NCBI RefSeq assembly: GCF_014696925.1
Contig: NZ_JACJQY010000022.1
Location: 1-64,000 of the forward strand
From: Phormidium tenue FACHB-1050
Lineage (GTDB): Bacteria; Cyanobacteriota; Cyanobacteriia; Pseudanabaenales; Pseudanabaenaceae
Reading direction: 5' to 3'
Length of the DNA stretch: 64,000 nt
Translations under genes and position numbers: made by a program
The notes under the pieces: generated by a model
The model's database searches: none
The model's input: only the letters and a program-made list of their open reading frames with translations
What the model was told of the DNA's origin: nothing
Shown: piece after piece, positions 239 to 62,911 of the stretch
Position numbering within the stretch: position 1 is the stretch's first letter
Layout: the number at the start of each line of letters is the position of its first letter

Positions 239-265
239 GAAAAGCCAAGCAGAGCTTGGCTTTTT

Positions 266-380
266 ATAGCTGTCGCCATTCTTGTTAGGACATAAAACCC
301 AAATAGTGTGGGGCGGCGCTTCGCGCCGCCTCACACTATTTGGGTTTTGATTTGTCCTGATACAGGTGGCTATAGCTATA
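266..380. repeat. B-family composite palindromic repeat, copy 1
   Basis: The element is about 115 bp. Its left end is TATAGCTGTCGCCATTC and its right end is GTGGCTATAGCTATA. The centre is a long hairpin whose arms start AAAACCCAAATAGTGTG and whose core is GGCGGCGC-TTC-GCGCCGCC. The same ends recur at 22930-23045, 42106-42221 and 54331-54446, and one end at 56447. It lies directly downstream of deoC. Confidence 0.85.
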
Positions 381-22764: not shown

Positions 22765-22773
22765 TATGTTCTA

Positions 22774-22876
22774 ATACCAAAACACAAAATGGCTACGCCA
22801 TTTTGTGTTTTTAAAACCCTTACTGGGTTTGGTTTTCGATTCACAAAAGTGTTGCCACACTTTCGTGAATTGGTAT
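22774..22876. repeat. D-family composite repeat, complete copy
   Basis: About 103 bp with ends ATACCAAAACAC and GTGAATTGGTAT. It contains three hairpins: ACCAAAACACAAAATGG with its inverse, AAACCC-TTACT-GGGTTT, and ATTCACAAAAGTGT with its inverse. Other complete copies: 27936-28043 and 56344-56446. Split copy: 42043-42260. Halves: 27777-27843, 39968-40010 and 48229-48290. Confidence 0.85.
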
Positions 22877-22929
22877 AACAAGACTGACGATCTAGATATA
22901 TAGACGGCGTGAACCGCCGCTTATATATC

Positions 22930-23045
22930 TATAGCTATAGCCACCTGTATCAGGACAAATCAAAACCCAAATAGTGGGAGGCGGCGCGAAGCGCCGCCTC
23001 CCACTATTTGGGTTTTATGTCCTAACAAGAATGGCGACAGCTATA
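22930..23045. repeat. B-family repeat, copy 2 (inverted)
   Basis: Reverse-complement orientation of copy 1, with ends TATAGCTATAGCCACC and GGCGACAGCTATA. The central arms are GGGAGGCGGCGC-GAA-GCGCCGCCTCCC, where copy 1 has a diverged but still paired version. It ends three bases before the stop codon of the phosphoribosyltransferase gene. Confidence 0.85.
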
Positions 23046-23047
23046 GA

Positions 23048-23548
23048 TCAAGTTTGTAGGTCACTTGGACTTAGCTTTTCGTATTTCTCAAAGGGTTGGT
23101 GAATCCAAGGATTGTCGTCTAAGAAGTCCACATAATAGTCAGGCGGTGCTACTGAGCAAGCCTTAAACCATAAAACCGCCGATCGCACTTCCGTGATCGC
23201 AAACTCTTCATGCTGCTGGAGCCATTCGAGAATCCGCATTAGGGTTACACCTGAATCCACCAAATCATCAACGAGCAAGATCCTTTTGCCAAGCGTCGCC
23301 GTAGTCATGGTGATATTGCTAGCAATCGTTAATTTTCCTCTTTCCTGAAAATCTTTGCCACCATAGGAAGAGGTCGAGAGAATCGCCAGAGGCTTGTTAT
23401 AAATCCGCGAAAGCATGTCACCAATGCGTAATCCCCCCCTTGCAAGACAGAGAATTTGATCGAATTCCCATTGAGATTGATAGATTTGAACTGCCAATTT
23501 CTCGATATTGGCGTGATATTCTTCCCATGAAACGTAAAGGTCTGACAT
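23048..23548 (-). CDS. Phosphoribosyltransferase (purine PRT-like)
   Basis: A 166-residue type I phosphoribosyltransferase. The PRPP-binding motif is ILLVDDLVDSGVTLMRIL (about residues 90-107), and FDQILCLARGGLRIGDML (about 30-48) is the loop that normally precedes the active site. The overall pattern resembles bacterial xanthine/hypoxanthine-guanine PRTs (Gpt/HisD-like cyanobacterial group). The base specificity cannot be told. It would act in purine salvage in the cytoplasm. Confidence 0.85.
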   Translation of the reverse strand: MSDLYVSWEEYHANIEKLAVQIYQSQWEFDQILCLARGGLRIGDMLSRIYNKPLAILSTSSYGGKDFQERGKLTIASNITMTTATLGKRILLVDDLVDSGVTLMRILEWLQQHEEFAITEVRSAVLWFKACSVAPPDYYVDFLDDNPWIHQPFEKYEKLSPSDLQT

Positions 23549-25556: not shown

Positions 25557-26036
25557 TTAGTTGGGGTAAAAATCTTGATTAAAAACTTGAGCGAAAGTAT
25601 AAGGGCATTCTGACGGTAAATCATTTTTATCCAATGGGGTCTCTTTAACGACTAGTGCGATCGCTTGTTTATATGACTTAGCGATCGCTTCTTCTAGATA
25701 TGGCTTAAGGCTAGGATTTTCGTGAATAAGTTCGAGTATTTCATCTCGTTGCAAATCAATAGTAATTCTCCAACTTTTACCCCGCAGAGATGGCTGATAT
25801 TGCCACTTGAGCAAATGCCCAATTAAAACTCCAAACCGATTTCGCAATTCCTGTTTTTGCTGTTTACCCAAAGACTCTATTTCCTCCGCGAGATTTTCTA
25901 GATCTAGCCCTTCTAACTTGCCGAGTCTAAGTAATTGAGCTTGTTCCTGTGTCCATGCGTAGAAATCTTGCTCGTATTGATCTTTAGCTTGTCTAGTTAA
26001 TGGATAAACATCATTTAACTTGCTTGTATTCAACAT
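25557..26036 (-). CDS. DUF29 family protein, copy 1
   Basis: A 159-residue cyanobacterial DUF29 protein with the hallmark YEQDFYAWTQEQAQLLRLGKLEGLDLENLAEEIESLGK, RNRFGVLIGHLLKWQYQP and WRITIDLQRDEILELIHENPSLKPYLEEA. The function is unknown. It is closely related to the copy at 62408-62911; the copy at 35493-35945 is more distant. Confidence 0.88.
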   Translation of the reverse strand: MLNTSKLNDVYPLTRQAKDQYEQDFYAWTQEQAQLLRLGKLEGLDLENLAEEIESLGKQQKQELRNRFGVLIGHLLKWQYQPSLRGKSWRITIDLQRDEILELIHENPSLKPYLEEAIAKSYKQAIALVVKETPLDKNDLPSECPYTFAQVFNQDFYPN

Positions 26037-41865: not shown

Positions 41866-41950
41866 ATCCTCACCATGAAACCGATATTGGTGTTTCTAGC
41901 ACCAAGGCGGTTGAAACATCAATATCGGTTTTTTGAAAGCCTATTGAGGC
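41866..41950. repeat. A-family repeat, degenerate copy 4
   Basis: ATGAAACCGATATTGGTGTTTCTAG...CAATATCGGTTTTTTGAAAGCC with a truncated second hairpin. The stem has TAT for TTT on both arms (GATATTGG / CAATATCG). Confidence 0.7.
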
Positions 41951-41958
41951 TTTGAGTA

Positions 41959-42040
41959 GTACAGATAAATTTTGGGAAGCGTTGCTCCGCGCCGCTTCCC
42001 AAAATTTATCTGGGCTTTAATTAAGCGCAAAGCGCTGTAA
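41959..42040. repeat. C-family repeat, copy 5
   Basis: Inner arms AGATAAATTTTGGGAAGC and complement around GTTGCTCCGCGCC; right end GCGCAAAGCGCTGTA as in C1 and C4. Confidence 0.78.
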
Positions 42041-42042
42041 TA

Positions 42043-42260
42043 ATCCCAATTCACGAAAGTGTTTCCACACTTTTGTGAATTAAAAACCAAACCCAGTAAG
42101 AGTTTTATAGCTGTCGCCATTCTTGTTAGGACATAAAACCCAAATAGTGTGAGGCGGCGCTTCGCGCCGCCTCACACTATTTGGGTTTTGATTTGTCCTG
42201 ATACAGATGGCTATAGCTATAAAATCAGAAAATGGCTCCGCCGTTTTTTGTTTTGGTATA
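42043..42260. repeat. D-family repeat interrupted by a B-family element
   Basis: The left D part (42043-42105) ends in AGAGTTTT and the right part (42222-42260) begins AAATCAGAAAATGGC and ends TTTTGGTAT. Between them is a complete B element (42106-42221). Confidence 0.85.
42106..42221. repeat. B-family repeat, copy 3 (inside D element)
   Basis: Complete B copy with the GTGTGAGGCGGCGC-TTC-GCGCCGCCTCACAC centre. It lies between two halves of a D element, and TA is present at both junctions. Confidence 0.85.
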
Positions 42261-54202: not shown

Positions 54203-54330
54203 TTAAATGCGTACCGAGTATTGCAAGAATATTTTCTGCATTTTATCGCGATTGTTAGTAAAAATATCAATTGCGAATGGGGGGAGAATTACGAATTACG
54301 AATTGAGAGGAAATCATGAATTGTCAATTA

Positions 54331-54446
54331 TAGCTATAGCCACCTGTATCAGGACAAATCAAAACCCCAATAGTGTGAGGCAGCGCGAAGCGCTGCCTCA
54401 CACTATTGGGGTTTTATGTTCTAACAAGAATGGCGACAGCTATAGT
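54331..54446. repeat. B-family repeat, copy 4 (inverted)
   Basis: Ends TATAGCTATAGCCACC and GGCGACAGCTATA. The centre is CCCCAATAGTGTGAGGCAGCGC-GAA-GCGCTGCCTCAC... where the G to A change in GGCAGC is matched by GCTGCC on the other arm. Confidence 0.85.
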
Positions 54447-56343: not shown

Positions 56344-56446
56344 ATACCAATTCACAAACGTGTGACGACACTTTTGTGAATTAAAAAACATACCCAGTAA
56401 GGGTTTTCAAAACACAAAATGGCTACGCCATTTTGTGTTTTGGTAT
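56344..56446. repeat. D-family repeat, complete copy
   Basis: Ends ATACCAATTCACAAACG and TTTTGTGTTTTGGTAT. It lies just upstream of the NFACT start, and a B element begins at the next base. Confidence 0.85.
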
Positions 56447-56516
56447 TATAGCTGTCACCATTCTTATATAGTGTGAGGCGGCGCGAAGCGCCGCCTCACA
56501 CTATTTGGGTTTTCAT
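56447..56516. repeat. B-family repeat, truncated copy 5
   Basis: Begins TATAGCTGTCACCATTCTTATATAGTGTG and has the central GAGGCGGCGC-GAA-GCGCCGCCTC hairpin. The AGGACATAAAACCC segment of the left arm is deleted and the right end is missing. It abuts a D element. Confidence 0.75.
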
Positions 56517-62407: not shown

Positions 62408-62911
62408 ATGCTGCAATCAGAAGTAAATCAAACATTGCAAGGCGATCGCTCTGATAATCTCGCTGGCAATCAAGCTGAGGCTATTAATCAATATGAGCAA
62501 GATTTTTACGCTTGGACGCAATATCAATCAGAATTTTTGCGTTTGGGTAAATGGCAGGAGCTAGATATTAAAAATTTGGTAGAGGAGATTTTATCGTTGG
62601 GTAGGCAGCAAAAGCAGGAACTCCGCAATCGTCTAGGAATTTTAATTGGGCATTTATTAAAGTGGGACTACCAGCCAGAATTGCGTAGTAAAAGTTGGAG
62701 AGCTACTATTCGTGAACAACGGGATGAAATTTTAGAAATTTTGCAAGAGAATCCCAGTTTAAAGCCTTATCTTGATGAAGCTGTTCAAAAAGGATTTCGC
62801 CAAGGGATTAACTTAGTTTTAAAAGAAACTCCCCTTGATCTGAATGACTTGCCTACAGAATGTCCCTATGCGATCTCCCAAATCCTCGATCTACTATTCC
62901 CTTTTGATTAA
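62408..62911 (+). CDS. DUF29 family protein, copy 3
   Basis: About 167 residues from ATG 62408 (MLQSEVNQTL); a GTG at 62399 would add three. It has the DUF29 hallmark YEQDFYAWTQYQSEFLRLGKWQELDIKNLVEEILSLG, RNRLGILIGHLLKWDYQP and QRDEILEILQENPSLKPYLDEA. It is very close to the copy at 25557, including KETPLDLNDLPTECPYA. The function is unknown. Confidence 0.88.
   Translation: MLQSEVNQTLQGDRSDNLAGNQAEAINQYEQDFYAWTQYQSEFLRLGKWQELDIKNLVEEILSLGRQQKQELRNRLGILIGHLLKWDYQPELRSKSWRATIREQRDEILEILQENPSLKPYLDEAVQKGFRQGINLVLKETPLDLNDLPTECPYAISQILDLLFPFD

Follow-up and report, generated by a model that had tools for sequence, protein, structure and literature searches.

Nested probable IS630-type MITEs in the rlpA-panC spacer of Phormidium tenue FACHB-1050 and a candidate partner transposase in a related species

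The window is the whole 64,000-nucleotide stretch analysed here, positions 1 to 64,000 of contig NZ_JACJQY010000022.1 of Phormidium tenue FACHB-1050. In its rlpA-panC spacer a short repeat, B, interrupts another, D. The nest opens with an unstranded TA (42041-42042), read from the sequence as the left copy of the presumed target duplication of D. It is followed by the left part of D (42043-42105, plus strand), which consists of the hairpin AATTCACGAAAGTGT..ACACTTTTGTGAATT plus AAACCCAGTAAGAGTTT, and by the left copy of the TA duplicated by B (42106-42107, unstranded). The 112-bp core of B, an IS630-type MITE (42108-42219, plus strand), runs TAGCTGTCGCC...GGCTATAGCTA; its terminal repeats are TAGCTGTCGCCA-N8-AGGACA and TAGCTATAGCCA-N8-AGGACA, with a long palindrome between them. 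Beyond the right copy of the duplicated TA (42220-42221, unstranded) stands the right part of D (42222-42258, plus strand), with a hairpin around AAAATGGCTCCGCCGTTTTTTG and the end TTGGTA, and then an unstranded TA (42259-42260), again from the sequence the right copy of the presumed duplication of D. Both parts of D were aligned to intact D copies. A third hairpin element (41943-42040) adjoins D, and its end resembles by eye that of the IS630-type element L078 (TACAGCCTATTGAGGGAAAGAGTAGTACA), so three IS630-type elements may each have left a MITE in this spacer.

The original prediction, made from the sequence alone, held that the D halves rejoin to a normal D once B is removed, and this was borne out. 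With one TA kept, the joined flanks aligned to an intact D copy over 103 bp with 0 gaps and 89.3% identity; with 0 or 2 TAs the best alignment scored lower and had 2 gap positions. The original prediction had proposed a comparison with the D copies at 22774 and 56344; both are intact and aligned gap-free across the B/D junction. TA at both B junctions, also predicted, was found base by base. At 42043-42258 one probable IS630-type MITE is nested in another, with exact junctions and one duplicated TA; the event is ordinary in kind and unusually well documented.

A second pair of the two elements lies at 22772-23045. Its D (22772-22877, minus strand) has TA on both sides, and so does its B (22930-23045, minus strand), which sits in the base of a hairpin. 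The orthologous place in a near species (genome G005) has neither element. The neighbouring 489 bp are 90% identical to the window in G005 and 94% identical in a second genome, G022. At the D site G005 reads GTTC-TA-ACAAG, which is an exact single-TA empty site; G022 is unlike the window further left and is therefore uninformative on this D. The empty form of the B site agrees with the orthologs: in G005 and G022 an uninterrupted run continues into TAGATCAAG. The left B junction was judged from the window itself, since the hairpin to its left differs in sequence in G005 and G022. When the B core and one TA are removed, 14 outer hairpin base pairs form; keeping no TA allows 4, and keeping two allows 6. 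Taken together, the two sites support TA duplication for both families. The hairpin beside the conserved gene (22889-22929 with 23046-23049; orthologs L368 and L369) is palindromic in three species, with a largely different sequence. The number of outer perfect pairs of the 22889-23049 hairpin is 14 with B taken out, 8 in G005 and 26 in G022.

Two more complete copies of B with TA on both sides are found in the window, the third at 265-380 (plus strand) and the fourth at 54329-54444 (minus strand). A truncated B at 56447-56515 directly adjoins the end of the D at 56344. Apart from these elements, 25687-25988 and 62480-62781 form a 302-bp inverted repeat pair that is 72% alike.

B occurs in many copies in the genome. 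The exact 13-base end of B was found 163 times (74 + 89, elements with the end on both sides counting twice), against 0 for the reversed-pattern control; this abundance is not chance. TA stood at both outer ends in 30/30 copies when the inner AGCT served as anchor, and the sequence further out varied; these copies were the best by similarity of 40 scored and are biased towards complete ones. Flanks other than TA and an unrestored D, both named by the original prediction as contrary evidence, were not encountered in these selected copies or at the nest. On each side the third base outside B is A or T in 29/30 copies, so the target seems to have the form W-N-N-TA-N-N-W. Selection was weaker in a sample of 48 loci collected by the left-end motif (4 of them fetched for a D junction). 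Among the 45 places parsed, 29 had a candidate right end by a loose recogniser, 23 of these ending in TA, and 16 had none, being truncated or too diverged. Many B elements in this sample are truncated, and there are at least three subfamilies, with cores that are unlike but mostly palindromic. Arms differ between the subfamilies and are mostly perfectly matched within them; the two arms seem to change together.

The fold of B is a near-perfect hairpin (-83.4 kcal/mol, z -16.8), and a 72-aa frame that overlaps it was judged to be chance. B is short, multi-copy and non-coding, with terminal inverted repeats and TA duplication, as is characteristic of a MITE. In 57 entries for the palindrome tip from own-genome loci (L001-L038, L321-L360), where symmetric copies are entered in both orientations, the tip reads TTCG in 29, GAAG in 20 and otherwise in 8. 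One locus, L009 (G000:C23, about 217,000), has a B identical to that of the window at the end of a B2-like element, seemingly within a D, and is a possible triple nest. Copies in the own genome are up to 100% identical. B-like DNA was present in 23/23 genus genomes searched (own included) and in 0/15 from other families. Seven plasmid records contain similar DNA; all 7 are from Pseudanabaena, to which these matches assign the genus. Phage records contained no DNA similar to B.

D is probably a MITE of another IS630-type element, one with TACCAAATCACAAA-like ends. The genome contains 137 intact D cores with one mismatch allowed, and the reversed control gave 2. The element L111 of G022, which carries a DDE_3 gene, ends in TACCAAATCACAAAAG / TACCAAAGCACAAAG, and the own-genome elements L040/L041, which carry DDE_3 genes as well, have the end ..GTGATTTGGTATA; in both cases the likeness to D ends was judged by eye, with no score or control.

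Very probably, B is an IS630-family MITE that was moved in trans by an IS630-type transposase and inserted at a TA of an older D. It would be a non-autonomous member of an IS630-family subgroup whose ends resemble TA|TAGCTRTMGCCA-N8-AGGAC. The transposase, acting in trans, would bind both ends and cut B out, the excised B would be joined to a TA dinucleotide, and repair would duplicate that TA. The TA used here lies in the middle of TTTTAAAA, which separates the two hairpins of D. That B is a mobile unit with the TA duplication typical of IS630/Tc1 elements had been claimed by the original prediction, and the claim is supported by the nest, by the orthologs of the second site and by IS630-type transposase genes with like ends, which occur in the same genus.

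The prediction also stated that the window has no transposase. For DDE_3 (IS630-type) genes and relatives of the partner this stands, with 0 DDE_3 matches on the contig. All 8 DDE_3 loci of the own genome were checked for B ends, allowing up to 2 mismatches, and 0/8 had them. For 101 listed DDE_3 matches in relatives, 50 loci were read (30 from four near-complete genomes and 20 more), and in none of these 50 was an element bounded on both sides by B ends. One of the elements, L077, shares the layout TATAGC-N16-AGGACA with B but has other letters, and was rejected. L141 was reached by tracing L077 across the genus, and L141 led in turn to further loci in Pseudanabaena sp. FACHB-1998. Here TATAGCTGTCGCCAAGTGTATTAGGACG stands beside part of a DDE_3 gene (L187, L188, L263); TATAGCTGCCGCCAAGTGAAATAGGACG stands beside the start of a similar transposase on other contigs (L171, L179, L183, L185). 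The two end types would belong to one element split by the assembly, the whole of which was never seen. The end sequence expected of the partner element of B is TATAGCTGTCGCC. One FACHB-1998 end matches the left end of B2 at 26/28 positions and that of B1 at 22/28. As a control, random 28-mers from the window were scored against eight IS ends, and 3/20,000 matched one of them at 19 or more positions; these 3 may themselves be B ends, since the window contains B copies. Transposase genes with matching ends, as expected of an autonomous IS630 element, are present in FACHB-1998, split over contigs.

The complete relative L141 is 953 bp long and has DDE_3 and HTH_Tnp_IS630 domains. Its transposase is spread over three reading frames, and it may be inactive or frameshifted. 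L141 sits inside another transposase gene, the flanks of which, joined with one TA, give an open frame of 307 aa. When the best 80 of 150 related transposase loci from other genomes were kept, TATAGC-N16-NGGAC was found just beyond the gene in 65 (mostly from other cyanobacterial genera), on both sides in 43/80, and was absent in 15.

The genome search for a transposase with such ends, which the original prediction had proposed, gave this candidate in FACHB-1998 and none close in the own assembly. There the best match to the C-terminal part of the partner lies at a contig end and reaches 48% over 42 aa; in a draft assembly such as this, a missing partner is not proof of absence. In G022 (6 contigs) no close partner was seen among 22 DDE_3 matches, 12 of which were read with flanks and the other 10 of which score equal to one read, yet its B copies are up to 99% identical to that of the window. 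G005 has a truncated relative of the partner transposase (81% over 78 aa); G040, G039 and G019 contain remnants whose ends are like those of L141. High identity of B without a close partner in the own genome or in the G022 loci read would also be expected if B had been spread in its own genome by an IS630-type transposase that is not its cognate enzyme but accepts TATAGC ends, and DDE_3 elements with such ends do exist in the genus (L076, L042, L113, L077). However, the two of these ends that were scored (L076, L077) match the B ends at only 14-17/28 positions, and recent loss of the partner is a simpler account given the truncated transposase in G005 and the remnants in the three other genomes. 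Spread by a non-cognate enzyme is therefore unlikely. Under the favoured reading, an IS630-type transposase of the kind found in FACHB-1998 would have moved B by cut-and-paste chemistry, with D already in place at 42043.

The original prediction placed the arrival of B after that of D; the mobility of B is supported, and the order is an inference, with no demonstrable D-only allele at 42043 among the relatives parsed. Mean pairwise identity is 95.8% for B (n=30, 23 distinct) and 86.4% for D (n=13), in samples gathered differently, that of B partly by similarity to the window copy. These values fit B being the younger family. The nesting, the greater divergence of D and the nearness of the interrupted D to intact D copies suggest that D came first and B followed at 42043. 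In the genus 25 loci with a panC start were collected (own included) and 24 were parsed; G012 has a run of N, and several were read for the last 700 bases. A D split by B was found in the rlpA-panC spacer of 0/23 relatives parsed, and the spacer is different in nearly every species read. G005, the nearest at the 42043 locus (91%), is without D and without B. G014 and G018 have a whole D in the spacer, with other flanks or in the other orientation. In G004 a B-like element stands next to a D, and the corresponding place in G014 lacks it; this pair was rejected as a clean empty site, the filled form having one TA too many.

TAGC-ended MITEs of several kinds were found at the same central TA of D. 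Complete inserts at this position are those of the window, L322, L338, L028 and L324 in the own genome and L049 in G008. They are B1 forward (window, L049), B1 reversed (L028), B2 (L322, L338) and a TATAGCAATG-type element (L324). Of these six, L322 and L324 were retrieved by a search directed at the junction; the other four were not. The junction pattern is loose (20 hits against 7 for the reversed control in the own genome, and at or below the control in most relatives) and was used only to fetch candidates. The count of complete inserts leaves out cases in which the insert is truncated or D is recognisable on one side only (two in L321, L323, L360). Eight cases of D with an insert were tried: 7 aligned, with one TA kept scoring best in 7/7, and L360 gave no alignment. 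Among the one-TA alignments 5 had no gap, L322 had 1 and L324 had 4; for L007 the margin was small (113 vs 111 bits). On closer look the B of L007 is at another TA of D, and it was rejected as a case of the central one. The 4021 TA sites of the window extrapolate to about 350,000 genome-wide; with these and the 137 intact D cores, rough arithmetic, with no formal test, gives about 0.07 expected strikes on the central TA for 163 random B insertions, or perhaps about 0.5 if these are intergenic only.

The D parts of six interrupted copies (L324 not among them) are each nearest to an intact D and not to one another. The same holds for the pairs that share insert kind and orientation, window/L049 of G008 and L322/L338. 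Because there are four kinds of insert and the D parts are nearest to intact copies, the inserts look independent. This bears on whether the insertion of B happened elsewhere and a D already carrying B arrived at 42043 as a composite, through a D-type transposase. The absence of both elements from G005 and the several D copies with an insert at the same TA would suit such an arrival, but the interrupted D parts do not group with each other, and it is improbable. Dispersal of B by recombination or gene conversion between palindromes would draw on its nearly perfect palindrome and the tip in both orientations, but is contradicted by the single-TA results, along with exact ends, unrelated flanks, the duplicated TA and insert-free orthologs, and can be practically dismissed. 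Insertion of B by transposition at a TA of D remains the favoured reading. A bolder extension is unlikely: in it TAGC-ended IS630 MITEs as a class prefer to land in the central TTTTAAAA of D, which makes D a harmless pad for them genus-wide, and cross-mobilisation still amplifies B in genomes that lack its cognate transposase.

No earlier description of B or D was found in the open-licence literature. The closest analogue of B is RUP of Streptococcus pneumoniae with IS630-Spn1. RUP is small (107 bp) and multi-copy (108-110 copies), has IS630-Spn1-like terminal repeats and TA at the target, and inserts into IS elements (PMC2229807, PMC3049150). The host is another one. In it the proposed RUP partner is common, whereas no partner of B was found in the genome that carries B. 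The available passages of PMC2229807 and PMC3049150 make no mention for RUP of a repeatedly struck position inside another MITE, as seen for B. ISY100 of Synechocystis belongs to the Tc1/mariner/IS630 family, which inserts at TA and duplicates it (PMC2170065). By description it is like B in being cyanobacterial, of the IS630 family and directed to TA; unlike B, it is autonomous, with 947 bp and 24-bp ends. In Anabaena sp. 90, 147 complete or partial small MITEs do not evidently resemble the ends of the IS found in the same genome (PMC3542288). These are called type II (no IS with the same ends) and are likened to B by description only; B differs in having a candidate partner in another Pseudanabaena species. 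Nezha, a cyanobacterial MITE for which ISNpu3-like elements are the proposed mover (PMC3049150), is likewise comparable by description only, as a cyanobacterial MITE with a proposed IS mover.

Two points are of some interest: B is homogeneous yet apparently orphaned in its host, and a TA in another MITE appears to have been struck repeatedly. The nest gives a probable order of invasion, B after D, with exact junctions, and the FACHB-1998 genes supply a candidate enzyme for the repeat. By this example, when the host genome of a cyanobacterial 'type II' MITE offers no partner, a related species may provide the match. With its repeatedly struck TA, D makes the target choice of IS630 enzymes testable on natural sites.
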